A stretch of 64,000 nucleotides of DNA from an uncultured Clostridia bacterium (GTDB lineage: Bacteria > Bacillota > Clostridia > Christensenellales > Borkfalkiaceae), in contig CANRNE010000011.1 in assembly GCA_947631925.1 (NCBI GenBank), positions 1 through 64,000 on the forward strand, read 5' to 3'. The notes below the pieces were generated by a model that was not told the origin of the DNA, did no database searches, and saw nothing but the letters and a program-made list of their open reading frames with translations. Both the position numbers and the translations under genes were made by a program. Positions 31,279 to 44,212 of this stretch are shown here, in pieces; position 1 is the stretch's first letter; each line of letters starts with the position of its first letter.

Positions 31279-31302
31279 GCCCGACTTCGGTCGGGCTTTT
31301 TT
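31279..31302 (+). terminator. Rho-independent terminator of the ABC-F gene
   Basis: GCCCGAC-TTCG-GTCGGGC with a UUCG tetraloop and TTTTTT. Confidence 0.9.
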
Positions 31303-31312
31303 GTTAAAAGAA

Positions 31313-31336
31313 AACCCCCGGATAGTCCGGGGGTTC
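31313..31336 (+). repeat. GC-rich hairpin at the left border of the IS region
   Basis: AACCCCCGGA / TCCGGGGGTT perfect 10-bp stem with a 3-base loop (positions 31313-31335). It may be a second terminator or the subterminal hairpin of the IS200-type element. Confidence 0.5.
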
Positions 31337-31370
31337 GGAAGAGGTTTACCGATAAGTATTGAAAATAAAA

Positions 31371-31432
31371 CTCCTTTGGATTAGAATAAAGGTAAGCGAC
31401 CTGGCAGTTGCGAACCGAAAAATCCAAAGGAG
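31371..31432 (+). promoter_or_regulatory. Stem that sequesters the tnpA ribosome-binding site
   Basis: CTCCTTTGGATT (31371-31382) is the exact complement of AATCCAAAGGAG (31421-31432), which contains the SD of tnpA. IS200 is known to limit transposase synthesis with such a 5' UTR stem; the arrangement here matches that rule. Confidence 0.7.
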
Positions 31433-31441
31433 GTCAACCGA

Positions 31442-31786
31442 ATGGAAGACATAAACAGTTTAGCACATACGAAATGGAATTGCAAGTATCACATCGTGTT
31501 TGCGCCGAAATATCGCAGGAAAGTATTTTTTGAAGAGAAGAGGTTGGAAATAGGAGCGATACTGCGAGAATTGTGCAGATGGAAGGGGGTGGAAATAGTA
31601 GAAGCAGAAGTGTGCCCCGATCATGTGCATATGTTGCTTGAGATACCGCCGAAGATGAGTGTAAGCGGGTTCATGGGATTTCTGAAAGGCAAGAGCAGCC
31701 TGATGATCTACCAAAAATGGGGCAACATGAAGTTCAAATACAGGAACAGACAATTCTGGTGCAGAGGGTACTATGTAGACACTGTA
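31442..31786 (+). pseudogene. tnpA: IS200 transposase TnpA, 5' part (codons 1-115)
   Basis: Reads IS200 TnpA from the start to YYVDTV. The HUH motif is present in DHVHMLLEIPP. In the intact protein a GKNTKAI-type segment should follow; instead the sequence changes at 31787 into foreign DNA, where a fortuitous stop is met at 31820-31822. The missing 3' part is at 43931-44047 and joins in frame. The catalytic Tyr of this family lies in the C-terminal part around YYVDT, so this fragment alone is unlikely to be active. Confidence 0.88.
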
Positions 31787-31815
31787 ACACATTTTTATGG
31801 ACACAATATGGACAC
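31784..31815 (+). other. attL of the 12-kb element
   Basis: The junction is within the GTA at 31784-31786, which is shared with attR. The element end reads ACACATTTTTATGGACAC, followed by a second ATGGACAC three bases later (31808-31815). These are inverted relative to GTGTCCATAAA at the right end, as expected for the recombinase arms of an attP split by integration. Confidence 0.75.
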
Positions 31816-31867
31816 TACTTAATATGTTCCATATGCCTACCGTTTACAAAGCCGCTGCGGAAATAAA

Positions 31868-31897
31868 AGCCCCAAAATCCTCATGGGGTTTGGGGCT
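31868..31897 (-). terminator. Terminator for the small membrane-protein gene
   Basis: AGCCCCAAA / TTTGGGGCT stem; on the minus strand it is followed by TTTTATTT. Confidence 0.8.
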
Positions 31898-31924
31898 TCT
31901 CCTCTAATCTATCCAAACAGTTTT

Positions 31925-32348
31925 TTAGAGATACTCTATAAACGCCTTTGTGTTATGATACTTTTCAATTTGATTATTCATATATTCCCTATACAGTTTC
32001 TTGTAATCTAATCGAGCCGCCGTCTGCGACGGAAATGATGTCCTTTCGCGGTTTTGGGGAATAAGCACGAGCTTATCTTTACAAGGTGTAAGTGCCTTCC
32101 TTAAATGGAATATTGTCATATTGGATTGCAATGATAGGTTTCCCGATTGTTACATTGATAAGGGTTGCCAACGCGACAACTCCAATCAATGGAATCAGTG
32201 ATACGGCAAATACAAGAAACGGAGAAAGAAAATCTGCAGTACTTCCGAAAAACAAGCCGATTACGATGATAGAAGTTATATATCCGAAGGTACCATACCG
32301 CCTATACTCCAGATGAATGATTCCGTCATTCGTCAGTGCCGTTCCCAT
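31925..32348 (-). pseudogene. Small membrane protein split by an apparent frameshift
   Basis: Two overlapping minus-strand reading frames look like one gene. Frame A (32348-32079, 89 codons) encodes a short polar N-terminus and two membrane helices and ends IPFKEGTYTL-stop. Frame B (within 32131-31925) continues with KDKLVLIPQNRERTSF and a charged helical tail ending in FIEYL. Removing or adding one base near 32080 would join them into about 140 residues. A terminator follows directly. It may be a true frameshift mutation, a sequencing error or a programmed shift. No function recognised. Confidence 0.5.
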
Positions 32349-32355
32349 AAAAACA

Positions 32356-32382
32356 GTCGGGAGTTCGTAACAAACTCCCGAC
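32356..32382 (-). terminator. Terminator of the InlB-type lipoprotein gene
   Basis: GTCGGGAGTT / AACTCCCGAC (10 bp) followed on the minus strand by TGTTTTTA. Confidence 0.85.
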
Positions 32383-32397
32383 CGTTTTCATGCCGAT

Positions 32398-35300
32398 TTA
32401 TTCTTCCCGTTTCCCGTCTGTTAACGGGGCGACGGGAACATCACGTCCCGCCATTGTTTTACTTGCCAATTCCGATAATTTGAGCGCTGTGCCGCCGTCC
32501 GTAGGTGTTTTCGCCCCATACACATAGATTGACAGATCAGAATAAGTATCCGTCGAAACCCGTCTGGTTCTGATAGAAATAACATCTCCCGCATCGGCTT
32601 GGAAAGTGGCACTGTGTGTACTTGCACTATGGCAATTTGTTTCCACAAGAATGTCCTCTCCTTTCGTTACATTTCTTATGTAAATATAAATGCCGCTTTC
32701 TTCTGTTCCGGACGAATCGACCCAGTAGTATACCTTATATTCTCCGCCCGTTAAAGCCGTGAAGTAGTTGTATATGGTGTTTGTTCTGTTAACGGTAAAT
32801 CTATATGAGTCATTGTAACCGGAGTATTTTCTGGCATCGAACCAAGAATAATATGTCGTATCTGACGCCATATACTGCCATCCGGCATACAGCGTCAGAT
32901 CCGACGAGATGGGCGCCGTGAAGTCATAGATGTTTTGACAGCTGCTCTCGGTAAACCAACCGCGGAATGCATAGTTTTTCCGAGAAGGAACGGGCGGGTA
33001 TGTCAATCCTATTTCGGTTGTTACCAATTGAGTCGCCGGCGGCGTTCCGTCCGCCCCGTTTAAGTCGAAGCTCACATGGAAGCTCCCCCAAATAACAGGC
33101 TCTTCGTTCTCATCATAACACCAATAGTTCCCATCCGTATCGGGGAGCTGCCCGGAATAATAATATACGATGATATCCTTCCCGGGAATTTCCAATTCCG
33201 CCCAGCCACTCTGATTCCCGTGATAAAAAACCTGTCCCTTGCTGCCGTTTTGGGCAGAACCGCCATCCATCTTGCCTCCATAGCCCGTTCCCATTCGCTC
33301 TGCTTGGATTGTGCCGCCATGGATAATGATATTTCCGCCGTTGCCGCCGTCACCGCCGTTGCCGCGGCTGCCGCTTTTGCCTGCATTTCTACCGTCGCCT
33401 CCACCGCCGCCGTAGCCGCCGTCACCGCCGTCTCCGCCGCCAATCCGCGTAGCGATGATTTGCCCGCCATAGATTGATAGTGTACCGTTGTTTCCGCCTG
33501 CACCGCCGCGCCCGCCGTCTCCGCCGCGCCCGCCAAGCCAATCGCCGTTGCCGCCGCGCCCGCCTGCACCGCCGCGCCCGCCGTCTCCGCCGCCGAGATT
33601 TGTTACCGTTATACAGCCCCCGCTGATGGAAATCGTGCCGCCATCGGATCCCTTTCCTCCGCTGCCGCCGGAAGAACCGGGCGTCCCCACGTCGCTTCTT
33701 TTTTCCCCATTGGTACCGTGATATCCCTCACTGCCGTTTGCTCCGCCTATATTGCCCAACACCGTCAATTTACCCATAGCGACAGCACTGCTTTGGGCAT
33801 ATATATTCAAGGTGTTTGACTCTGTAACAAAAATATTGTTGACGGTCCATTCACAGCCATCTGCAAGGATGATATTTGCTTCGCCCGAAACAGTCAGGTT
33901 CACGTCGCCCGTTACAGCGCCGAGGAATAAATACCAGCCCGTCAACGTTCTTTGCTCCGCCGATTTGAGGAATTCGATTTCCGCATCCCTGTATTCTTTT
34001 TCTTCTCCGTCTTTGCCGATATAGCGAATTTCCGTATACCATTTTGCGGTGTATGTCACTTCGTCTGTCGACATAACGAAAGTATAACTCAATCCCTCGG
34101 CAATCCTATCATCGCCAGTATACCATCCGAGCCAAAAATATCCTTCGTTGCTTACCGCGGTGATTGTTATTTCATCTCCCAGTTTGTATGCGCCATCCAA
34201 AGATGTTATCGTGCCGGCGAAGGGACTGTTGGATTCCACCTTGACCGGACATATTATCCAATGCGCCGTATAGGTTGTGCTTTCTCCCGTAAAAGAGAAC
34301 GTGTATGAAAGATCGCCCGTCACTTGCTCGTTTTCCCGATACCAACCGGTAAAAACATATCCGTCGTTCGTAACCGCCGTAATCGTTACGCTATCGCCGA
34401 TATCGTACGTCTCCTGGGAAGAGAAAACTTCGCCTGCGTTTTCATCGTTGCGCTCCAAGGCAAATTCGCACCATCTCGGAACAAGGGTAATATTTTCTTC
34501 GGGCATCGTAAAGGTGTAATCCAATTCGCCCGAAACTCTCGTGTCGCCTTGATACCATCCGAGGAACGCATAGCCCTCTTGCGCGGCAGTAGTTACTGTA
34601 ATGCTCTCCCCTGCCGTAACTTTGTTTTCCGAATCATGCGCCCGGCTGATGCCCCCGGCGGTCGGAAGTTTTCCGCCGGAAACGGTAAGTGTTTCGGTAA
34701 ATCCGCCGGACGATGCTCCGCTTGTGGCGTATACTCTACTGAATTGAACGAGAAAAACGTCACCGGCATTTGCCTCTATATTACTGTAGGAACTTATGGT
34801 CGCGATTTGTCGACCGTGCACATCATAACGGTAGCATTTTTTGGTTACTTTGTCGTCCGTTCCCCACGAGACGTCGAAATCGATGGAATACTTTCCGCCG
34901 GTCAACGCGGAAAAATAAAAGTCACGCCGAGGATTTTTCTCTTGCCAAGTACTGTAATTCTCATAGGGATCCACCTTGGAATAATAGCAAGACGTACGCG
35001 ATCCGCTCGAGGTCGTTATATCAAGGACATCCGTATTTTTCTCATTATCATATTTGAATTTGAACCAGCCGGCATACAAAACGATGCTCTCCGTTACCGG
35101 TGCACTGAAATCAAAAATTTCTTCGCAGTCCGTATCTTTATACCAACCGCAAAATACATAGCCGCTCCGCACGGGTATCGTGGGATAAACCAATCCTTTG
35201 GTCGGCGTGATTAATTGAGGCTCGGGGGCTGCTCCGTCGGCTCCGTTCAAATCAAACGTAACCGTTGCGGGAACATACCCGCTCTCGTCGCTGTGAAAAG

Positions 35301-37035
35301 TAACGGTATAATACGTCCAATTTGCCGTATAAACGGTTTCCTCCACGCCCAGCTCAAACGTATAACTCTGTGCCTCCGTAAGGAGTTCTCCGTCACAATA
35401 CCAGCCCAACCAGGTATAGCCTTTGTTGGTCTCTGCGGTGATTGTAATTTGCTGCCCGACATGTGTTGCGGAGGGCAATGCAGCCACGCGACCGGCTTTG
35501 AGATTGCTGAGCTCGATTGTGATCGGGAACTCAATCCATTTCGCAATACATACCACGTTTGCTTTGGGCATGGTGAAATAATAGGAAGAATCGGTGGAGA
35601 CCAATTCATCATCGATATACCAACCGGTAAATGTGTACCCGCTTTCCGTCGTTGCATACAAGTAAAAACTTTTATTCGGAGTGGTCTTTGCTTGGTCATA
35701 TCGTGTTACGCTGCCTGCGGCCTCGTTATCGCTCTGCGTGGTCAATGTGTAGAAATTCCATTTCGCAGTCAAAACGGTATCAAGTCCCATCGGGAAAGTA
35801 TAATTTGCCTCTTCGCTCACAAGCGTATCATCTTCCGCAAACCAACCGAGAAAATTATATCCCTCATTTACCGTAGCGCGAATCGTAACTGTTTCATCAT
35901 AATCATATTCTCCTTCGCCGCTGATTTCCCCACATTCGGGGCAATCGTTGTTCAAAACAAGAGAATATCTGTTTGCTTCCCAATGCGCCGTTACTTCGGT
36001 ATCGCTGTCCACGTCCCAAGCAGCAATCGAACTTCCGTCCTCTTCCGTGAGTTGGGTACTCCCGTTCCACCAGCCGAGGAAAGTGTAGCCCGTGCGCGCG
36101 AGCAGAGAGAATGAATAATTCTCATCGAACGTCACCGTCGTTTCGGCTACGTCGCTCCCGCCCGCGGAATCGAACGTTACACGATATGTCTTTGCCGTCA
36201 GGTCCGCCGTAAAGGTGAGCGGCGCGAGAATGGTTTCGCCGTATTCGAGCTCATGCACCCAACCGTTGAAGGTGTAGCCCGTCAACGTATACGGAATATC
36301 GTACTCGTTTTCGGTAAGGAGCGACCCCGTCATCGCTTGCTTTTTCCTATATTCCGTTCCATTTGCCATGTACGTGATATCAATGGTATATTTGCGGTGC
36401 ACCGTGAGATTGTAGGTGTTCGTATTCTCACCGTCTTTGGACGCCACAACGATGCTGAACTCGTTATTCCCGTCCGTAAGCGATGCGGTCTTGGTGTAAA
36501 TCTCGCTCTCGCTCCCCTTTCTGTAGAGATGCCATGTGCTGTCCTCGCTGCACACCACCTTGCCGCCGGTGAGATTGACTTCCTCTGTCTCGGGCTCGAC
36601 GAACAAGAATACTTCGTTCCCCTCAACGTTTACGTCCTCCACGCTGAAGAGAACGGCGGAAGCTTGCTCCCACTTCGCATAGAGCGTGGTGCCTTCCGTC
36701 ACCTTATCAGCGGAAAAATCCCAAAGGTCGGAGCCGATTTCCGTCTTGCCCCAACCCGCAAAGGTATAGTTTTTCCGTGTCGGAGATGTGGGGGCGGTTA
36801 GTTTATTCCCTTCCTTTACAGTCTGTGTGTATGTATTCTGTCCGTCCGCAAACATTCCGCCGTTGGCGTCGTAGGTAACTGTGTACTCTTTGGCAGAAGG
36901 TGTTTGCGACCCGCCGTCCTCGCCGCCGCTTTGGCTGCCACCCTCCGTTCCAACCCCAGCACATGCAGAAATGCCAAAGCAGAGACACAATGCCGCAGTA
37001 AGCGAAATGATAATCGCCAAAAGTTTCTTTTTCAT
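32398..37035 (-). CDS. Giant InlB B-repeat (Flg_new) surface lipoprotein with Gly-rich insert
   Basis: 1545 residues. Signal peptide with lipobox ISAC (Cys25). From about residue 50 it is built of at least ten copies of the InlB B-repeat/Flg_new unit, recognised by GYxFxGWYxxxxxV, YTFxMP and xxAKW signatures. Two beta-sandwich segments (near 680-800 and 1420-1530; each contains SALTGG or TALTGG and AGDVF or AGDVI) may be carbohydrate-binding. Residues about 1120-1235 are a Gly-rich GGxGG low-complexity insert. SD CGGAGG. It is the cargo gene of the element and probably an adhesin or glycan-binding factor. Composition is AT-richer than the host surface proteins at 1-8950. Confidence 0.88.
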   Translation of the reverse strand: MKKKLLAIIISLTAALCLCFGISACAGVGTEGGSQSGGEDGGSQTPSAKEYTVTYDANGGMFADGQNTYTQTVKEGNKLTAPTSPTRKNYTFAGWGKTEIGSDLWDFSADKVTEGTTLYAKWEQASAVLFSVEDVNVEGNEVFLFVEPETEEVNLTGGKVVCSEDSTWHLYRKGSESEIYTKTASLTDGNNEFSIVVASKDGENTNTYNLTVHRKYTIDITYMANGTEYRKKQAMTGSLLTENEYDIPYTLTGYTFNGWVHELEYGETILAPLTFTADLTAKTYRVTFDSAGGSDVAETTVTFDENYSFSLLARTGYTFLGWWNGSTQLTEEDGSSIAAWDVDSDTEVTAHWEANRYSLVLNNDCPECGEISGEGEYDYDETVTIRATVNEGYNFLGWFAEDDTLVSEEANYTFPMGLDTVLTAKWNFYTLTTQSDNEAAGSVTRYDQAKTTPNKSFYLYATTESGYTFTGWYIDDELVSTDSSYYFTMPKANVVCIAKWIEFPITIELSNLKAGRVAALPSATHVGQQITITAETNKGYTWLGWYCDGELLTEAQSYTFELGVEETVYTANWTYYTVTFHSDESGYVPATVTFDLNGADGAAPEPQLITPTKGLVYPTIPVRSGYVFCGWYKDTDCEEIFDFSAPVTESIVLYAGWFKFKYDNEKNTDVLDITTSSGSRTSCYYSKVDPYENYSTWQEKNPRRDFYFSALTGGKYSIDFDVSWGTDDKVTKKCYRYDVHGRQIATISSYSNIEANAGDVFLVQFSRVYATSGASSGGFTETLTVSGGKLPTAGGISRAHDSENKVTAGESITVTTAAQEGYAFLGWYQGDTRVSGELDYTFTMPEENITLVPRWCEFALERNDENAGEVFSSQETYDIGDSVTITAVTNDGYVFTGWYRENEQVTGDLSYTFSFTGESTTYTAHWIICPVKVESNSPFAGTITSLDGAYKLGDEITITAVSNEGYFWLGWYTGDDRIAEGLSYTFVMSTDEVTYTAKWYTEIRYIGKDGEEKEYRDAEIEFLKSAEQRTLTGWYLFLGAVTGDVNLTVSGEANIILADGCEWTVNNIFVTESNTLNIYAQSSAVAMGKLTVLGNIGGANGSEGYHGTNGEKRSDVGTPGSSGGSGGKGSDGGTISISGGCITVTNLGGGDGGRGGAGGRGGNGDWLGGRGGDGGRGGAGGNNGTLSIYGGQIIATRIGGGDGGDGGYGGGGGDGRNAGKSGSRGNGGDGGNGGNIIIHGGTIQAERMGTGYGGKMDGGSAQNGSKGQVFYHGNQSGWAELEIPGKDIIVYYYSGQLPDTDGNYWCYDENEEPVIWGSFHVSFDLNGADGTPPATQLVTTEIGLTYPPVPSRKNYAFRGWFTESSCQNIYDFTAPISSDLTLYAGWQYMASDTTYYSWFDARKYSGYNDSYRFTVNRTNTIYNYFTALTGGEYKVYYWVDSSGTEESGIYIYIRNVTKGEDILVETNCHSASTHSATFQADAGDVISIRTRRVSTDTYSDLSIYVYGAKTPTDGGTALKLSELASKTMAGRDVPVAPLTDGKREE
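33330..33690 (-). repeat. Gly-rich triplet-repeat tract within the surface lipoprotein gene
   Basis: Imperfect GGC/GGT-type coding repeats (seen on the plus strand as CCGCCG...TCTCC units) encode GGRGG, GGDGG and similar. Low-complexity tracts of this kind are prone to length change by slippage. Confidence 0.75.
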
Positions 37036-37078
37036 AAAAAACCTCCGATTTTCCGATGAACTTTTCAGGCGGAAAAGT

Positions 37079-37156
37079 GTACACGGATTATTCTATTCCG
37101 TGTACCATTACCCATCTGCTTAACTCTATTATACTACTCTCCCGCGAAGAAATCAA
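37079..37156 (-). promoter_or_regulatory. Promoter and leader hairpin of the surface lipoprotein gene
   Basis: On the minus strand TTGATT and TATAAT are separated by 17 bases (37128-37156). The leader contains a perfect inverted repeat GTACACGGA / TCCGTGTAC (37079-37105, 9-base loop), a candidate operator or RNA stem. Confidence 0.7.
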
Positions 37157-37252
37157 GAGTTATCAGACAATTTTTTGCCTGTGATACTAAATTTCCCCAT
37201 GAACATCGAACATTTTCTGCACATGGAATAGAATATTACATGAACAATTTGT

Positions 37253-37276
37253 GACGGGGGTAACCCGTCTTTTTTT
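37253..37276 (+). terminator. Plus-strand terminator without an assigned gene
   Basis: GACGGG / CCCGTC followed by seven T on the plus strand. No plus-strand gene lies upstream of it, so it may end a small RNA of up to about 100 bases (a weak TTATCA-17-GATACT promoter is at 37159-37187) or block readthrough into the integrase. It directly abuts the integrase stop codon. Confidence 0.5.
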
Positions 37277-38177
37277 ATTGCAAAAGTTTGCCGAGACGGT
37301 TCATCATCAGCTGCTTGTGCTCCATGAGGCTGTGAACATAACGATTTAAGGTGACGGTGGGGTTTTTATGACCAAGGATCTCGGAGAGCGTTTTCACGTC
37401 CATGCCGCATTCAAGGGCGCGCGTGGCAAAGGTATGACGAAGCGCATGGAACCCACGGTGCGGGATTTGCAACTTCTTCAGAAGCAGCTCAAAAGTCCGT
37501 TGATAGGAGCGCACAGAGACAGGCTTATCTCCTCCGACGATATAAGTCCCGCCGCTCTCCCGCTTTGCCTTCTTCAAGACGCCGATAATCTGCTTGGGCA
37601 GGGGGATGACGCGCGCCGAAGTTTTTGTCTTGGGTGTCTCAAGTAGCTTTTTATAACCGCTTTTACCCCAACCGTCATGACAAGATTGCGTAACGGAAAG
37701 AAGCCCTTCCGTGAAGTCAATGTCCGCCCATGTGAGAGCCATCAGTTCACCGATGCGCAACCCCGAATACAGGCAGAGTAAAATGCCTACGAGCTTCTGC
37801 TTTTTACTCTGCAATATGTATTCCTCGATTTTCTTCTGTTCTTCTTTGGTGAAGCATTCCACCCGCTTTTCTTCGAGCTTCGGACGGATGATCCCGTCGG
37901 AATATTGCCGCTCCGCTACGCCGTAAATCACCGCCTGCTTCAATGATTTTTTCAGAACCGAGATGGCGACATTTACGGTATTGGGAGAAAATGAGGCTAC
38001 CATGCCTGCAACGAACCGCTGTAGAACGCCCGCTGAAAGCATTTCTATCTCATATTCTCCGAGTTTGGGCGTAAGATGCCTTCTGCAAATACGCTCGTAT
38101 TTTTCGTAAGTGCGAGCCTTCGCCGTGGGACGAACACACACCGCCAACCACTCCGAAAGCCATTCATTGTATTTCAT
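37275..38177 (-). CDS. Tyrosine site-specific integrase
   Basis: 300 residues. N-terminal SAM-like DNA-binding domain (about 1-90), C-terminal catalytic domain with the full set: Arg141 in SGLRIGEL, Lys185 in TKTSARVIPL, HALRH (His244, Arg247), LGH (His270) and Tyr280 in NRYVHS. Phage/ICE integrase type (Tn916-like order). It should catalyse DNA strand exchange at a specific att site. In this element it sits internally, not at an end, so it may be a remnant of a nested element or act on circular forms. Confidence 0.93.
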   Translation of the reverse strand: MKYNEWLSEWLAVCVRPTAKARTYEKYERICRRHLTPKLGEYEIEMLSAGVLQRFVAGMVASFSPNTVNVAISVLKKSLKQAVIYGVAERQYSDGIIRPKLEEKRVECFTKEEQKKIEEYILQSKKQKLVGILLCLYSGLRIGELMALTWADIDFTEGLLSVTQSCHDGWGKSGYKKLLETPKTKTSARVIPLPKQIIGVLKKAKRESGGTYIVGGDKPVSVRSYQRTFELLLKKLQIPHRGFHALRHTFATRALECGMDVKTLSEILGHKNPTVTLNRYVHSLMEHKQLMMNRLGKLLQ

Positions 38178-38249
38178 AAATTCCTCCTGTGAAAAGATTT
38201 TGCCCCTTAAAAGTGTAACGAAAAAGGGGGCGAATCCGACAAATGGTTT

Positions 38250-38314
38250 TTAGGCGTGTGCCTGTCTTGAAAACAAGCGCGCCGCTGCGCGGCGCGAGAC
38301 AGGCACACGCCTAA
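38250..38314 (+). other. Large inverted repeat 1, candidate origin
   Basis: Perfect 18-bp arms (38250-38267 and 38297-38314; core AGGCGTGTGCCTGTCT) enclosing a second GC-rich hairpin (CGCGCCGC / GCGGCGCG). The 319-base gap between integrase and Rep contains no gene. Long nested hairpins beside a HUH Rep gene are typical of rolling-circle double- or single-strand origins. Confidence 0.6.
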
Positions 38315-38344
38315 GCCGAACAAAACGATAAACGGAAAGAGAGA

Positions 38345-38406
38345 CTGTGAGGGCGCGGGCATCGCCGCTGAACCGCTTGCGAATGCCCGCGCTTGCCCTC
38401 TCACAG
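38345..38406 (+). other. Large inverted repeat 2, candidate origin
   Basis: Imperfect arms CTGTGAG...GCGGGCAT (38345-38362) and ATGCCCGCGC...CTCACAG (38383-38406) with small bulges. The 13-mer GATAAACGGAAAG just upstream (38327-38339) recurs at 41011-41023 within the same element. Confidence 0.5.
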
Positions 38407-38496
38407 AACATCTTTTCTTTTGCCGTTTACGTTCGTATTTGTATTCGGCAGGCGGCGGTTGCGCGTCTCGGCGCACGTTTCATCGCCGCTCCTGTT

Positions 38497-39603
38497 TCAA
38501 CTTGATTTCGGCAGCATAGCAATCGTTTCGCGGGATACTTCGCCCACCTTCACACCCTCATCCCAACAGGTGAAGTCGCAGGCAAGCACGAGCCGGTTGT
38601 CCGTTTCGTTCACGATCTCCATTTTTGCCAACACATCCGCGCCCTGTATGTCCGAGCGGAAGAACTCATACAGCCCCCGCGAATACACCGCCTTTTCGTT
38701 GTTCTTCTCCATGTACTTCATGAGATAGGCAAGTGCTTTTCCATACACCATATCGGAGAAGGATATATCGTCAAACTCATTCCTGCCGAACTTCTCCGCA
38801 AAGAACGTGTTCTGCGTTATCGTCTTTCTCTTGCCCGTCTTTTTGTTGTAGTCCTTCACTTCCTCAAACTCGCCTACCGTTTCTCCGTCGGGGATATACA
38901 CGAGCGCATGAAAGTGAAGCCTTCCCGTTTCCTTACCCCGTTCCCATACGCCCATATACAGCCACTTATGGCGCGTCGCAAGCCGACGTAGCGTCTGTAA
39001 TAGCCGTTTCTTAAAACTTTCCTCGGTATGCTTTTCATCCGAATAGGTGAAAGTGGCAAAGTAGCGGAAATGCTGGTTATATGCTTTCCTTGCGAACCGC
39101 TGTCTGCGCACGACGAGATTTCTCCACCGCCGTAAACAGTTGTCGTCCACAAACACTTTCAAAGCGTCCTCGGTTGTAAACAGTGGGCGCATATCGTTGA
39201 GGATCGCCTGTTTGCGCTCTTTCGGTTTCAGATGGAGATACTTCTCGTAAAGTTCATCAAAGATTTGCTTGTGCGTGGTATGCCGAATGACCTTCTTCGG
39301 CTCGTCTGTACTTTCAGGCGGGCTTTTTTCATGCGCTTTGATTGCTTCCTCGACCGTGATTTGTTCGGGCGTTGAGGGCGGTTTTTCCTCACCGTGAGAG
39401 GACTGCTCCAATGAGAGCTTTCCGTCCTCAATAGATACCGCAATGACCTGTTCTCTGTGCTTTCTGCGGCGGGTACGGTTGGTGGTATGCGGGGTGGCGA
39501 TATAGTTGCTGCCGTCAAAGCGGACTTTACAGTTGGGATACCAAACCGCAATGCCGTCCGCGTCAAGTTCCCCAATACTGTCGCCGGGTTGTTGTCTTTT
39601 CAT
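38497..39603 (-). CDS. HUH-type rolling-circle replication initiator (Rep)
   Basis: 368 residues from the ATG at 39603 with a perfect AAAGGAGG SD; the longer frame to 39654 is not needed. A basic helical region precedes the catalytic domain: strand FATFTYSDE, the metal-binding HUH motif in GRLHFHALVYIP (about residues 228-236), and a Tyr-containing helix KALAYLMKYMEKNNEK (about 285-300) that would carry the nicking Tyr. This is the layout of Rep proteins of small plasmids and microviruses. It would nick the element's circular form at an origin, probably the hairpin region 38250-38406 just downstream. Confidence 0.82.
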   Translation of the reverse strand: MKRQQPGDSIGELDADGIAVWYPNCKVRFDGSNYIATPHTTNRTRRRKHREQVIAVSIEDGKLSLEQSSHGEEKPPSTPEQITVEEAIKAHEKSPPESTDEPKKVIRHTTHKQIFDELYEKYLHLKPKERKQAILNDMRPLFTTEDALKVFVDDNCLRRWRNLVVRRQRFARKAYNQHFRYFATFTYSDEKHTEESFKKRLLQTLRRLATRHKWLYMGVWERGKETGRLHFHALVYIPDGETVGEFEEVKDYNKKTGKRKTITQNTFFAEKFGRNEFDDISFSDMVYGKALAYLMKYMEKNNEKAVYSRGLYEFFRSDIQGADVLAKMEIVNETDNRLVLACDFTCWDEGVKVGEVSRETIAMLPKSS

Positions 39604-39735
39604 AGATCCTCCTTTGAAATGATCGCAGGCGCTCCCGCCGCAGAAAGTTCCCATACCTCCTTAAATTTATTTTTGCAGCCATAGACGGGCGGGAGTGCCT
39701 GTCACAATACGAATAGATTTTTTCACCGGCAGGAC

Positions 39736-39776
39736 ACGAAAAAAGTGCGAAGTTTTTTTCTTCGCACTTTTTTCGT
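39736..39776. terminator. Long perfect hairpin between rep and the winged-helix gene
   Basis: ACGAAAAAAGTGCGAAG / CTTCGCACTTTTTTCGT, 17 bp, 7-base loop. It can terminate on either strand. The gap 39604-39975 otherwise holds a smaller hairpin (GGCGGAA/TTCCGCC near 39830-39848) and a stem at 39941-39973 right after the stop of the next gene. Confidence 0.7.
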
Positions 39777-39940
39777 ATGCCTTTATCACGGACATGGTAT
39801 GGGGATTTTATGTCAAATCACTTGCGTTAGGCGGAATTGACTTCCGCCGTGCGCGACACAATTTGCGCGACACTTCGTGCTTCTTGTCCGATGAAACGAA
39901 CGAGAGGACACAAAAGTTAATTCGTAACCGCTCATTTCCT

Positions 39941-39973
39941 CACGGAATTTCTTTTCCCAAAAGAAATTCGTGA
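39941..39973 (-). terminator. Stem immediately after the winged-helix gene
   Basis: CACGGAATTTCTTTT / AAAAGAAATTCGTG with one bulge, three bases from the stop codon; no T-run follows. Confidence 0.5.
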
Positions 39974-39975
39974 AT

Positions 39976-40896
39976 TTATTTGGTTGTGAAGTCGCCCACG
40001 ATGAAATACTGCTCTGCATGGTCGTCGTCCAGCTCCCTTGAAACTTGAATGATGTTCTCATAGAACCAATTAAAGATGCCGAACATCTCTCCCGTTTCCC
40101 CGTCCGAAACCGTGACAACGGGATTCTCTTCCAACCCGCCAAACTCTATTAAAAGCGGATTGCCATACAGCGATATTTTTTCGGAGCGGCCGAGCGGGAA
40201 GATCGGGAATTTGATACTCCCGTCTTTGGAGAAAAGAAAGTGTTTGAGCTTCTCTTTTTCTCCCCGCCAATAACTGTACCGCAAGACGATGTACTTAACG
40301 TTTTCGGGGGTAGTGATCGGAAGGTCGTTCTTCACCAGATAATCGTGCCTTGCCTTCCGTTGTTCAAACTTCGCCTCGCAGAGCGGATAGTTGTTATGCC
40401 AAACTTTATTGTGAGCGAAGGAATACACCTTCCAATTCCAATCACGGATACCGACGTCGTGTTTTGTATCATAGAGAAGTTTTAACGTCAATCCCGAACC
40501 GTACTTTTCACACGGCGGTCCGATATAGCGATAGGCATTGCACCTCTGCGCCCCGCTTCTTGATTTCCGAGGAGTGATTTCAATCAGTTTTTCCCGTTCC
40601 AATCTATGCAATACCGTCTGCACCGTCCTGTCCGAAACGCCCAACAGATGAGAAAGAACAGGGATGCGGAACGTTCTACCGTTGCACTCTATCACGGTAT
40701 TGATAATGATTTCCCTGCGCTCTGCGGGGGTTGGCTTGCGAACAAAGAACTCGTGTTCGTCGCCGTCCACCATATAATGCGGGTTTTTGATACGGATAAA
40801 GCCGTACCCATTGCGCCTGATATGCTCCCACGGAAACTCACTCGCTTCTTCGATTTCATCATCGTAATACTTTTCTGCAAATAAATCAATGCCCAT
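39976..40896 (-). CDS. Winged-helix replication/regulatory protein of the element
   Basis: 306 residues from the ATG at 40896. Residues about 75-130 form a helix-turn-helix (FRIPVLSHLLGVSDRTVQTV followed by HRLEREKLIEITPR) typical of replication-initiator A or MarR-like winged helices. The rest is unassigned. The -10 box TATAAT lies so close (40903-40908) that the mRNA would begin at the ATG; the longer frame start at 40941 lies upstream of the promoter. Possible roles: second replication initiator or repressor of the element. Confidence 0.65.
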   Translation of the reverse strand: MGIDLFAEKYYDDEIEEASEFPWEHIRRNGYGFIRIKNPHYMVDGDEHEFFVRKPTPAERREIIINTVIECNGRTFRIPVLSHLLGVSDRTVQTVLHRLEREKLIEITPRKSRSGAQRCNAYRYIGPPCEKYGSGLTLKLLYDTKHDVGIRDWNWKVYSFAHNKVWHNNYPLCEAKFEQRKARHDYLVKNDLPITTPENVKYIVLRYSYWRGEKEKLKHFLFSKDGSIKFPIFPLGRSEKISLYGNPLLIEFGGLEENPVVTVSDGETGEMFGIFNWFYENIIQVSRELDDDHAEQYFIVGDFTTK

Positions 40897-40902
40897 ACCA
40901 TG

Positions 40903-40931
40903 ATTATACCGCGTTCCCACACAAAAAGCAA
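40903..40931 (-). promoter_or_regulatory. Promoter giving a leaderless mRNA for the winged-helix gene
   Basis: TTGCTT and TATAAT, spacing 17 on the minus strand. The ATG is 7 bases downstream of the -10, so transcription should start at the initiation codon. No SD is present. Confidence 0.65.
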
Positions 40932-41013
40932 GAAAATACAAACAGATGTTCGCATTTTATCTCATTTTTTCTTTATGACTACAATTTTTCTCTGTCTTTC
41001 GGCGTTTGGTGAT

Positions 41014-41153
41014 AAACGGAAAGCCACCTGCCGTCAAGTGTAAAATGCACTCCCATTCGGTCGCCCTTGACGGCAGGTGAGCCGTATTCTCTGATAAATT
41101 TTTATTCTGCCATGCCTCACACAATTTATAAAACCGTTATTGTCTTTCCGTTT
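41014..41153 (+). other. Nested inverted repeats in the divergent gap of the element
   Basis: Outer arms AAACGGAAAG (41014-41023) and CTTTCCGTTT (41144-41153); inner perfect 14-bp arms CACCTGCCGTCAAG (41025-41038) and CTTGACGGCAGGTG (41066-41079). The 306-base gap between the divergent genes has no ORF of note. Could be a control region or second origin (incompatibility/oriT-like). Confidence 0.5.
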
Positions 41154-41202
41154 GGGGTAGGGTGCGCCGAAAGGCGAGAAAAACAGCTCGGAGGAAAAGA
41201 AA

Positions 41203-41823
41203 ATGAGCAAAGTGTTGGATTACGGTGTTCTCCGCGAGGAGATCTCAAAGGAAAACGTGCTTGCAATGGCAGAACTCATTGCAGTCCTCGAAACGCAGTA
41301 TCTCATCGGATATATGGGAACGCGGATGCAACGGCTATACCGTGATGTCTATGTAGATATCAAGCACAAGAATGATGTCAGCCATGTATTCAGCGACGGC
41401 TATGACTTGGTGCAGGAAGGCGCGTTATTCCTCTGCGAACATTACGGGAAGCATTTGAGTGATGTTATCGGCTATACCAAGAAAGGCAAGAAGATCACCA
41501 TACAAATCGCCTGTACCAAGAGGATGATGAAACTCATCAACCGCAAGACAAGTGACTATTACCGTAGCGTAAGCCTTGAAGCGTTGACGCCCGTGAGCGA
41601 ACCTTCCACAGAGATGCAGGAAGAAACAGAGCGGGACTATACCGTAGCAGACAGTATCGTTGAGAACTTGAACTTAACGGACAACATGAAAACCGCGCTT
41701 GAATGCCGCATGGCGGGGTTGAGCTTCCCCGAAATCGGCAGGATACTTGAAAGAGCGCAATCCACGGTATTTGAATACTTCATAAAAATGCGCCAAAGAT
41801 ACACGGCAATTTACGGAGGATGA
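41203..41823 (+). CDS. Sigma-region-4-like DNA-binding protein
   Basis: 206 residues, SD GGAGG. The C-terminal 60 residues carry a helix-turn-helix like sigma-70 region 4 (LECRMAGLSFPEIGRILERA followed by QSTVFEYFIKMRQRY). The N-terminal part is helical with conserved-looking aromatic and charged residues. Proteins of this type are common in clostridial mobile elements just upstream of a serine recombinase and probably control its expression. Not a complete sigma factor. Confidence 0.65.
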   Translation: MSKVLDYGVLREEISKENVLAMAELIAVLETQYLIGYMGTRMQRLYRDVYVDIKHKNDVSHVFSDGYDLVQEGALFLCEHYGKHLSDVIGYTKKGKKITIQIACTKRMMKLINRKTSDYYRSVSLEALTPVSEPSTEMQEETERDYTVADSIVENLNLTDNMKTALECRMAGLSFPEIGRILERAQSTVFEYFIKMRQRYTAIYGG

Positions 41824-42003
41824 TATGGAACAGATATCCACCCTCGGACATGGTATGCCTTGAAATGCTCTATCTTTCCAAAGACTATCCATACCTACAT
41901 CCCCCCCTTGAAAAATAATTTTATGGAAAACCATTGTCAAACGGGGTGAAATTTCCTATTCGTATTTTGCAACCATAGGGAAAGCATTCCCCAAAAAATA
42001 TCT

Positions 42004-42210
42004 ATGTCACAAGAGGTCAAAAATGAACTCGAACAGGAAACCAACGAACTTGAAGGATTGGAGAACCACTATCTCTTTTCCCCGTCTATCACAAGAAGGA
42101 AAACCGTCTGCGGAAAGACTTATACCGTCCGTAGCTATTATGCAGGCAGTAAGGACTTTCGCAAAGCAATCACACGGCTTGCAGAACAGCAGGCTTACAA
42201 AGCGAGGTAA
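42004..42210 (+). CDS. TnpW-like small transposon protein
   Basis: 68 residues. The C-terminal half (SITRRKTVCGKTYTVRSYYAGSKD read as a beta-hairpin plus helix) resembles small TnpW-type proteins encoded directly upstream of TnpX-like recombinases. The stop is 3 bases before the recombinase start, suggesting coupled translation. No strong SD. Role in recombination directionality or regulation is inferred. The 41824-42003 gap shows no clear gene. Confidence 0.55.
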   Translation: MSQEVKNELEQETNELEGLENHYLFSPSITRRKTVCGKTYTVRSYYAGSKDFRKAITRLAEQQAYKAR

Positions 42211-42213
42211 TCT

Positions 42214-43839
42214 ATGAAACAGGAAAAACAAATCGCAGGACTTTATATGAGATTGTCCCAAGAGGACGAACGGCAGGGAGAATCGCTCTCCATTGAGAAC
42301 CAGCGGCACATCCTCCGCAAGTATGCCGAGGAGAACAACATCGAAGTGTACGGCGAATACATAGACGACGGCATTTCGGGAACAACGTTCCAACGCCCCG
42401 AAGTGCAGCGGCTTCTCGACGATGCCAAGACGGGAGTTATCAATGCCATCATCGTAAAAGACCTTTCCCGCTTCGGGAGGAACTATATCGAAGTGGGACA
42501 ATACCTTGATTATGTGTTCCCGGCGTTCGGCATCCGCTTCATCGCCATACAGGACAATGTAGACACTTCCAACCGTGACAGCAGCGCAATGGAGATGATG
42601 CCCATTATGAATGTGTTCAACGAGTGGCACGCCGCCAATACGAGTAAGAAAATCAGAGCGGTTTTGAAATCCAATGCGAGAGAAGGGAAATATCATCCGA
42701 GAAAAGCACCGTATGGATACGTCAAGGGGAATGACGACAAGAGAACGCCTATCGTCGACGAGGAAGCGGCTATCATCGTAAAGCGCATCTTTGAAATGCG
42801 TTCCCGCGGCATGAGTCCGCACAGGATCGCAGATCAACTCAACGAGGAGGGCATCGCAAGCCCGAGCAAATATTGCATGGAGAAGTATGGGATCGTAGGT
42901 AAGCGCAACAACTTCGGGTTATGGTCTGTCTGTCCAATCAATAGTATCCTTAAAAATCCCACCTATCTCGGACACATGGTACAGCAACGTTGGACTTCGG
43001 TTTCATACAAAAACCATGCAAGGTATCTCCGCGACGAGAGCGAATGGGTCATTGTACGGAATACGCATGAGGCAATCATAAGCCAAGAACTCTGGGATAA
43101 GGTGAGGGAAGTGGAACAGTCTGTTGCACAGGGGAGAAAAACCAAGCGCGGCTACACGCATCCTCTTTCGGGATTCCTGTATTGTGCGGACTGCGGTGGA
43201 AAAATGAAATTGAACTATATCAAGCGTAACGGCGGCCTCGTCTATAACTTTAACTGCGGCAACCATATAAGGCTTGGCAAAGCGTATTGTTTTTCTCATC
43301 ATATCGCAGCGAAGGACTTGGAAGAGATCATCCTCGGAGATATCCGCTCTATGGCACAGAGGGTTACGCTCGACGAACAAGAAATACGCGAGGCATTTAT
43401 AAAATATCATGCCGAACTTGAGGAAAGGGCGATAAAATCCTCGCAGAGAGAACTGAAAGCCAAGCAAAAACGACACGGCGAACTTTCCCATCTTATGCAA
43501 GCCGCCTATGAAGATAAAGTGCGGGGAAAGATTCCAGAGGACATCTGCGTATCATTTATTGAGAAGTACTCCGCCGAACAGAAATCACTTGCGGCGGAGA
43601 TCGAAGAACTTGAAAGGAAATTGGGCGAAACGGAAACCGTCCGCCAAAACGCAGATGACTTTATACGGGACATAAAGAAATATCTTGACGCTCCCACGCT
43701 TACCCATGAGATGTGCTTTGAACTCATTGACCGCATCGTCATTGGCGGCTTACCCAAAGCCACGGGCAAAGAGCGCACCATAGAAATCGTCTATAAAGTA
43801 GACATTGCCTCCGTCCTGCGAGACCGATTCAAAAAGTAA
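42214..43839 (+). CDS. Large serine recombinase, TnpX/Tn4451-like
   Basis: 541 residues. N-terminal resolvase domain with the catalytic Ser15 in LYMRLSQED and the DLSRFGRNY and NVFNEWHAANTSKKIR conserved blocks; central recombinase domain (about 165-300); zinc ribbon (CADCGGKMK, later CGNH and a further C); C-terminal coiled coil (about 395-480). It catalyses integration and excision through a 2-bp core. Located about 70 bases from the right end of the element, it is the best candidate for the enzyme that inserted it into tnpA. Confidence 0.95.
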   Translation: MKQEKQIAGLYMRLSQEDERQGESLSIENQRHILRKYAEENNIEVYGEYIDDGISGTTFQRPEVQRLLDDAKTGVINAIIVKDLSRFGRNYIEVGQYLDYVFPAFGIRFIAIQDNVDTSNRDSSAMEMMPIMNVFNEWHAANTSKKIRAVLKSNAREGKYHPRKAPYGYVKGNDDKRTPIVDEEAAIIVKRIFEMRSRGMSPHRIADQLNEEGIASPSKYCMEKYGIVGKRNNFGLWSVCPINSILKNPTYLGHMVQQRWTSVSYKNHARYLRDESEWVIVRNTHEAIISQELWDKVREVEQSVAQGRKTKRGYTHPLSGFLYCADCGGKMKLNYIKRNGGLVYNFNCGNHIRLGKAYCFSHHIAAKDLEEIILGDIRSMAQRVTLDEQEIREAFIKYHAELEERAIKSSQRELKAKQKRHGELSHLMQAAYEDKVRGKIPEDICVSFIEKYSAEQKSLAAEIEELERKLGETETVRQNADDFIRDIKKYLDAPTLTHEMCFELIDRIVIGGLPKATGKERTIEIVYKVDIASVLRDRFKK

Positions 43840-43845
43840 AAAGAA

Positions 43846-43880
43846 AGGCGTATGAGTTCCCCGCTCATGCGCCTATTTTT
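43846..43880 (+). terminator. Terminator of the serine recombinase gene
   Basis: AGGCGTATGAG / CTCATGCGCCT (one G-T pair) followed by ATTTTT. Confidence 0.85.
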
Positions 43881-43905
43881 ATGTCTTTCTCCCCATATCC
43901 CCCTA

Positions 43906-43933
43906 GTGTCCATAAATTTATGTCACAACGGTA
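43906..43933 (+). other. attR of the 12-kb element
   Basis: Right end GTGTCCATAAATTTATGTCA is inverted relative to the left end (TTTATGGACAC shared, 11 bp). The junction lies in GTA at 43931-43933, after which tnpA resumes. Confidence 0.75.
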
Positions 43934-44047
43934 GGGAAGAATACGAAAGCAATCAAAGAGTACATAAGCAACCAACTGAAACAGGATAAAGAAGCAAGTC
44001 AATTAAGTATTGACGACTTAGACGACCCGTTCACGGGTAGCAAGTAA
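43931..44047 (+). pseudogene. tnpA: IS200 transposase TnpA, 3' part
   Basis: Reads V-GKNTKAIKEYI and ends DDPFTGSK-stop, the normal TnpA C-terminus. Joined to 31442-31786 through the shared GTA codon it restores a 152-residue transposase. Confidence 0.88.
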
Positions 44048-44056
44048 CAATCGCAT

Positions 44057-44150
44057 GACTGCCAGGTCGTCATATGCGCGGCTTGCGCGCCGCTGGTATT
44101 ATGAGGGCTTACAGCCCGAAACTGAAAAACCACCGGCTATGCCGGTGGAT
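44057..44150 (+). repeat. Right-end hairpins of the IS200-type element
   Basis: Contains ACTGCCAGGTCG (inverted partner of 31398-31409), GCGGC/GCCGC, GGGCT/AGCCC and the end-type hairpin CCACCGGC-TATG-CCGGTGG. Confidence 0.6.
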
Positions 44151-44212
44151 ATTTATTCTTGCAAAAAGCGCGGGATTTTTTGTTTCAAAAGCAAAAAAGT
44201 GATTGCAAACCG

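Follow-up and report, generated by a model that had tools for sequence, protein, structure and literature searches.

A probable serine-recombinase integrative element inserted at codon 114 of an IS200 transposase gene in an uncultured Clostridia bacterium

Large serine recombinases of the TnpX/TndX subfamily (the DUF4368 clade, represented by Tn4451 and Tn5397) combine four domains with a 2-bp crossover core, such a core being recorded for Tn4451 (PMC5704250). Elements nested within elements are already known: the same source places serine-integrase IMEs at exact sites in the ICE genes maff2, SNF2 and traG, as well as IME_oriT in the oriT nic site (PMC5704250), and another describes Tn1806 in ICESa2603 elements (PMC12942858). 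The locus described here lies in the window (the whole 64-kb stretch of DNA that was analysed) and consists of an IS200 copy, spanning about 31296-44157 with its insert, whose transposase gene (tnpA) is divided by an element of 12,147 bp (31783-43929). This 12.1-kb insert is best explained as an integrative element placed by its own large serine recombinase at the dinucleotide AC of tnpA codon 114 (probability roughly 0.87), and site-specific insertion by that recombinase at this point is well supported. The element resembles the ICE-nested IMEs and IME_oriT in being a serine-integrase element at an exact site within the genes of another mobile element, but differs from the ICE-nested IMEs in that its host is a 0.7-kb IS200 copy and not an ICE, that no relaxase was recognised in the ten ORFs searched, and that among its relatives the sites include serine-recombinase, Rep and hairpin sequences. 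A literature search, with most subscription journals outside its reach, returned no published description of IS200 tnpA as an attachment site.

Similarity of the host copy to other copies runs from near 31296 to 44157, so the IS200 without its insert measures about 0.7 kb. As in IS200 of the IS200/IS605 family, its tnpA scores above the transpos_IS200 cut-off and follows an STnc490 leader, but here the gene is interrupted. The first half starts at 31442 and breaks off within codon 114 (of which AC forms bases 1 and 2), and the second resumes at 43930 and ends with the stop at 44047; joined, the halves restore one frame of 152 codons, as the preliminary description had read them. The insert separates the HUH motif (HVH at residues 61-63, with His61) from Tyr125, which aligns with Tyr127 of the IS608 chain only after the halves are joined and which is presumed to be catalytic. 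Once the halves are joined, a Y1 HUH transposase with its tyrosine is found, as in the IS200/IS605 family. Contig C12 of this genome ends in the uninterrupted 3' part of a second IS copy (L002), which agrees with the joined halves in 304 of 305 positions.

The sole mismatch between the joined sequence and L002 is G for T, directly after AC. Because this only difference from an uninterrupted copy falls on the base right after AC, the T at the left junction is element DNA. The shared core is AC, bounded by differing bases and present at both ends, in keeping with the 2-bp cores of the TnpX/TndX (DUF4368) subfamily. An attachment core of three bases, GTA, had been proposed earlier and gives way to AC on account of this mismatch and of relatives without GTA on one side (right junctions AC|GACAGG in L005, L126 and L178; left junctions AC|TGTC in L132 and L111), so that GTA is common to both sides only by chance in some copies. 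Read-through of GTA-GGG, which the preliminary description expected of intact copies, is seen in the own-genome copy and several others, and ACA-GGC is seen in some. The proposed inverted 11-bp arms are present exactly (31794-31804 on the minus strand and 43906-43916 on the plus strand), within fuller inverted arms of 22 bp that are symmetric about AC and 18/22 identical. With at most one mismatch, the 11-base arm has two matches in the 64 kb against 0.36 expected, a count also reached in 2 of 100 shuffles. Arms and cores were identified first by eye and then by a scripted tally. The core of Tn4451 is GA, and the window element differs from the Tn4451/Tn5397 family in its AC core and in its exact sites in mobility genes.

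Table 1. Features of the interrupted IS200 copy and its insert (window positions)
Feature	Position	Strand	Basis
Left part of IS200 copy, including core AC	31296..31782	+	Similarity to other IS copies starts at 31293-31298 in several relatives
STnc490 RNA family match, IS200 leader	31313..31429	+	Rfam RF01405, 59.2 bits (gathering score 56)
tnpA codons 1-113 and two bases of codon 114	31442..31782	+	Pfam Y1_Tnp 3.6e-35; NF033573 above cut-off
Left AC core copy	31781..31782	+	Base comparison with uninterrupted copy; arm alignment
Left 22-bp arm	31783..31804	-	18/22 identical to right arm
1545-aa protein with InlB-type B repeats, probably surface-exposed (cargo)	32398..37035	-	Pfam Flg_new 1.9e-77, Flg_new_2 4.8e-53
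Tyrosine recombinase (cargo or accessory)	37275..38177	-	Pfam Phage_integrase 4.7e-25; weak matches only, in L033 and L040
Hairpin with 18-nt perfect arms, candidate origin	38250..38314		Pattern as in the hairpin that other elements enter; DNA fold z -8.56
Rep-like protein (REP_ORF2-G2P)	38497..39654	-	Pfam PF23343, 50.8 bits (cut-off 27.8); in many relatives
321-aa conserved protein without family match	39976..40941	-	97% identical in L008 and L134
206-aa conserved protein, weak sigma-factor-like match	41203..41823	+	NF009175 E 6e-4, below its cut-off
68-aa ORF, candidate directionality factor	42004..42210	+	Precedes recombinase in most relatives reaching far enough
Large serine recombinase, 541 aa, open frame	42214..43839	+	Resolvase, Recombinase, Zn_ribbon_recom and DUF4368 all above Pfam cut-off
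Right 22-bp arm	43906..43927	+	Junction tally of relatives; arm alignment
Right AC core copy	43928..43929	+	Junction tally of relatives; arm alignment
Right part of IS200 copy	43930..44157	+	228 bases identical to L002; several relatives also end at 44157
tnpA from third base of codon 114 to stop, with presumed catalytic Tyr125	43930..44047	+	Alignment with IS608 and other TnpA structures

The recombinase carries the four domains of the TnpX/TndX recombinases; its best match among solved structures is the TnpX N-terminal domain (E 6e-28), and among annotated plasmid genes tndX comes closest, at 37.7% identity. It lies inside the ends, giving the element its own integrase, as is typical of an IME. 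Family searches of the ten element ORFs recognised no relaxase, conjugation or mobilisation gene (conjugation and mobilisation being points of comparison with Tn4451-type elements), one of the ten being the Rep-like PF23343 protein. The 68-aa ORF, the 206-aa protein and the Rep-like protein are found near the recombinase in many relatives, in a backbone comparison whose listing left out the InlB-repeat protein. A backbone role for the tyrosine recombinase is not supported, given that it has only weak matches, in two relatives, and both it and the InlB-repeat protein appear to be cargo or accessory. Two other affiliations were considered and set aside, namely membership of SCC with its Ccr recombinases (NCBIfam CcrB 144 bits against a cut-off of 900) and a viral origin (a viral-contig scan gave 3 candidate stretches and 0 confirmed relatives). 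Phage records held 857 matches to the recombinase, all below 60% identity, and one match to the Rep-like protein; plasmid records held no Rep matches.

A recombinase search of GTDB contigs yielded 50 loci; all of the material consists of draft genomes, in which contig ends are close to many of the junctions. Strong recombinase matches occur in 23 of the 103 genomes of the genus and, at order level under a stricter limit, in 11 of 396 genomes. Of the 398 genomes of the family, 14 contain the tnpA right-junction pattern, at 19 places in all, and none contains its reversed control; the left-end pattern, with up to 3 mismatches, occurs at 48 places in 33 of the 398. Thirty of these 48 left ends have a locus: 13 are at tnpA residue 113, three each in Rep and in a second type of serine-recombinase gene, and one in the hairpin, with 10 unassigned. 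All 22 right tnpA junctions start at residue 114 and all 14 left ones end at residue 113, these being distinct sequences with AC or GT cores, not necessarily separate events, tallied after removal of false arms inside tnpA (9 of 31 forward rows and 1 of 15 reverse rows); L156 is a tnpA left junction that the arm pattern of this tally missed. A second complete tnpA insertion of about 15.4 kb (L178, genome G258, in another genus) has both tnpA halves on one 114.6-kb contig. Elements of this type do occur at other IS200 copies, where the preliminary description had suggested looking for them. Its proposal that tnpA genes are the target agrees with the uniform 113|114 junctions and with L178, and is too narrow, relatives using at least four kinds of site.

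These recurrences also bear on whether the junction could be an assembly misjoin bridging two tnpA fragments, as might be feared of a draft genome in 75 contigs whose second IS copy ends a contig. The same site and arms appear in many other assemblies and the second complete case lies inside a long contig; since 14 of the 398 family genomes share the junction, a misjoin is rejected as extremely improbable, a judgement made from assemblies. Two further arrangements were noted: a decayed copy (L139, G060:C20) with tnpA residues 3-87, the C-terminal part of a recombinase and tnpA from residue 114, and a nested one (L133:1636-3111) in which an element occupying a serine-recombinase gene adjoins a second one, in tnpA, at the latter's left end.

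The wider set of relatives extends the range of sites. Once 7 loci that lacked a recognisable arm had been set aside, the count with no filter on the core came to 39 distinct right junctions; the core was AC in 34, GT in 2, and GG (L060), AG (L044) and CC (L047) in one each; in tnpA it was AC in 14 of 14. Six of the 39 came from tnpA searches and the other 33 from recombinase similarity alone, and these 33 comprise 9 in tnpA, 7 in serine-recombinase genes (a Pfam run on the flanks of L022, L044 and L015 served this assignment), 2 in Rep, 7 in the hairpin and 8 elsewhere, which places 25 of 33 in named sites. Among the 8 elsewhere, L027 lies in an ABC-transporter gene and the flanks of L038 and L017 have no Pfam match; a by-eye reading of the L038 flank as a regulator was dropped for that reason. 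L010, on a 134-kb contig, is a complete element of about 9.0 kb lying within a single serine-recombinase gene, and L014 looks like another complete element in such a gene. In a gene of the elements' own recombinase family, L081 has its left junction at residue 134, and a second such junction with the same motif was seen by eye in G004:C37. The hairpin junctions show the right half alone in 6 of 7 cases and both ends in L013. The hairpin sequence also occurs inside several relatives, the window hairpin having the same pattern, and its folding is much stronger than that of shuffled versions (z -8.56 in the window, -6.08 and -4.71 in others); the hairpin may be a replication origin.

Site specificity is not absolute, as 8 of the 33 right junctions fall elsewhere, and this is where a different account must be weighed: a multi-target recombinase for which tnpA is in no way chosen, multicopy IS elements merely offering many landing sites. 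DUF4368 recombinases are described as often multi-targeting (PMC10083194), and the recombinases of L094 (in tnpA) and L061 (elsewhere) are nearly identical at differing sites, which means that a change of site can be quick. Loose targeting of a multicopy gene would, however, scatter the junctions, whereas every tnpA junction falls on one codon, and the other kinds of site are equally exact; such indifference to the site is accordingly considered unlikely. Insertion site tracks recombinase ancestry beyond chance, the eight site labels requiring 15 changes on the recombinase tree where shuffled labels need 24.9 (none of 200 shuffles being as low) and the tnpA label alone 5 changes (as low in 4 of 500), on a tree of 38 rows, five short rows excluded, in which near-copies cluster anyway. 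Specialisation of the lineage on mobile-element genes is strong, but not absolute.

Cargo varies among the insertions. A PADLOC search covered L134, L178, L010 and two window cargo proteins: the tnpA insertion L134 (G075) encodes a KilA-N protein along with a type III restriction-modification pair, and the tnpA insertion L178 (9427-19383) carries type I restriction-modification, Old-like, Shedu-like and HEC-07-like proteins; in L010 an ABC transporter gave incidental matches to ATPases, and no defence match was obtained for the two window proteins. In two tnpA insertions, defence islands with restriction-modification and other defence genes thus ride inside insertion sequences. The precise, frame-restoring junction and the open recombinase frame would also suit a switch, resident in the gene, whose excision on cue activates tnpA, in the manner of skin or fdxN developmental excision. 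The interrupted genes are selfish ones, though, and because cargo differs and most genomes of the genus (80 of 103) are without a close recombinase, the insert behaves as a mobile element, which makes a switch very improbable.

Under the preferred reading of an integrative element placed at AC by its own enzyme, the recombinase would join an attP, in which AC stands between the two 22-bp arms, to an attB in IS200 tnpA that has the AC of codon 114 as its central dinucleotide; strand exchange would leave AC at both ends and split tnpA between the His61 HUH motif and the presumed catalytic Tyr125. The earlier proposal that the serine recombinase at 42214 made the insertion is upheld in so far as the enzyme travels with these ends and the ends recur at one tnpA codon, and from this constant company we infer that it was the agent. 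The intact ends and the open recombinase frame suggest that excision could free tnpA again.

The wider lineage, on this view of the integrative element, uses exact sites in the mobility sequences of others (IS200 tnpA, serine-recombinase genes, Rep and the hairpin), and such sites would harbour elements at little cost to the cell. A more far-reaching possibility, put forward tentatively, is that the lineage has become a specialist of other mobile elements, with recombinases that recognise codons around catalytic motifs in the genes for transposases, Rep proteins and recombinases, together with an origin hairpin, so that insertion would disarm a competitor at no loss to the cell and the insert, often a defence island, could later release it. 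It would then be a hyperparasite of transposons and plasmids, possibly with its own kind among the targets; the disarming of competitors, excision, transfer and mobility are all proposed here as hypotheses. The relatives open a testable question, whether such elements gain from silencing the competitors of their host or merely find a safe landing place. The analysis also supplies a sequence-defined recombinase-site pair from unculturable gut Clostridia (attP arms around AC, attB at tnpA codon 114), as well as a naturally occurring set of related recombinases that have switched among a few exact sites in mobile-element genes.

More distant recombinases lie in other surroundings, all judged by eye. 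Twelve of them, about 48-50% identical, perhaps form a sister group that uses surface-protein genes, lying tens of bases from coding sequence that resembles collagen-like GXY repeats (L066-L070, L072, L074, L075, L079 and L082) or leucine-rich repeats (L065 and L080).
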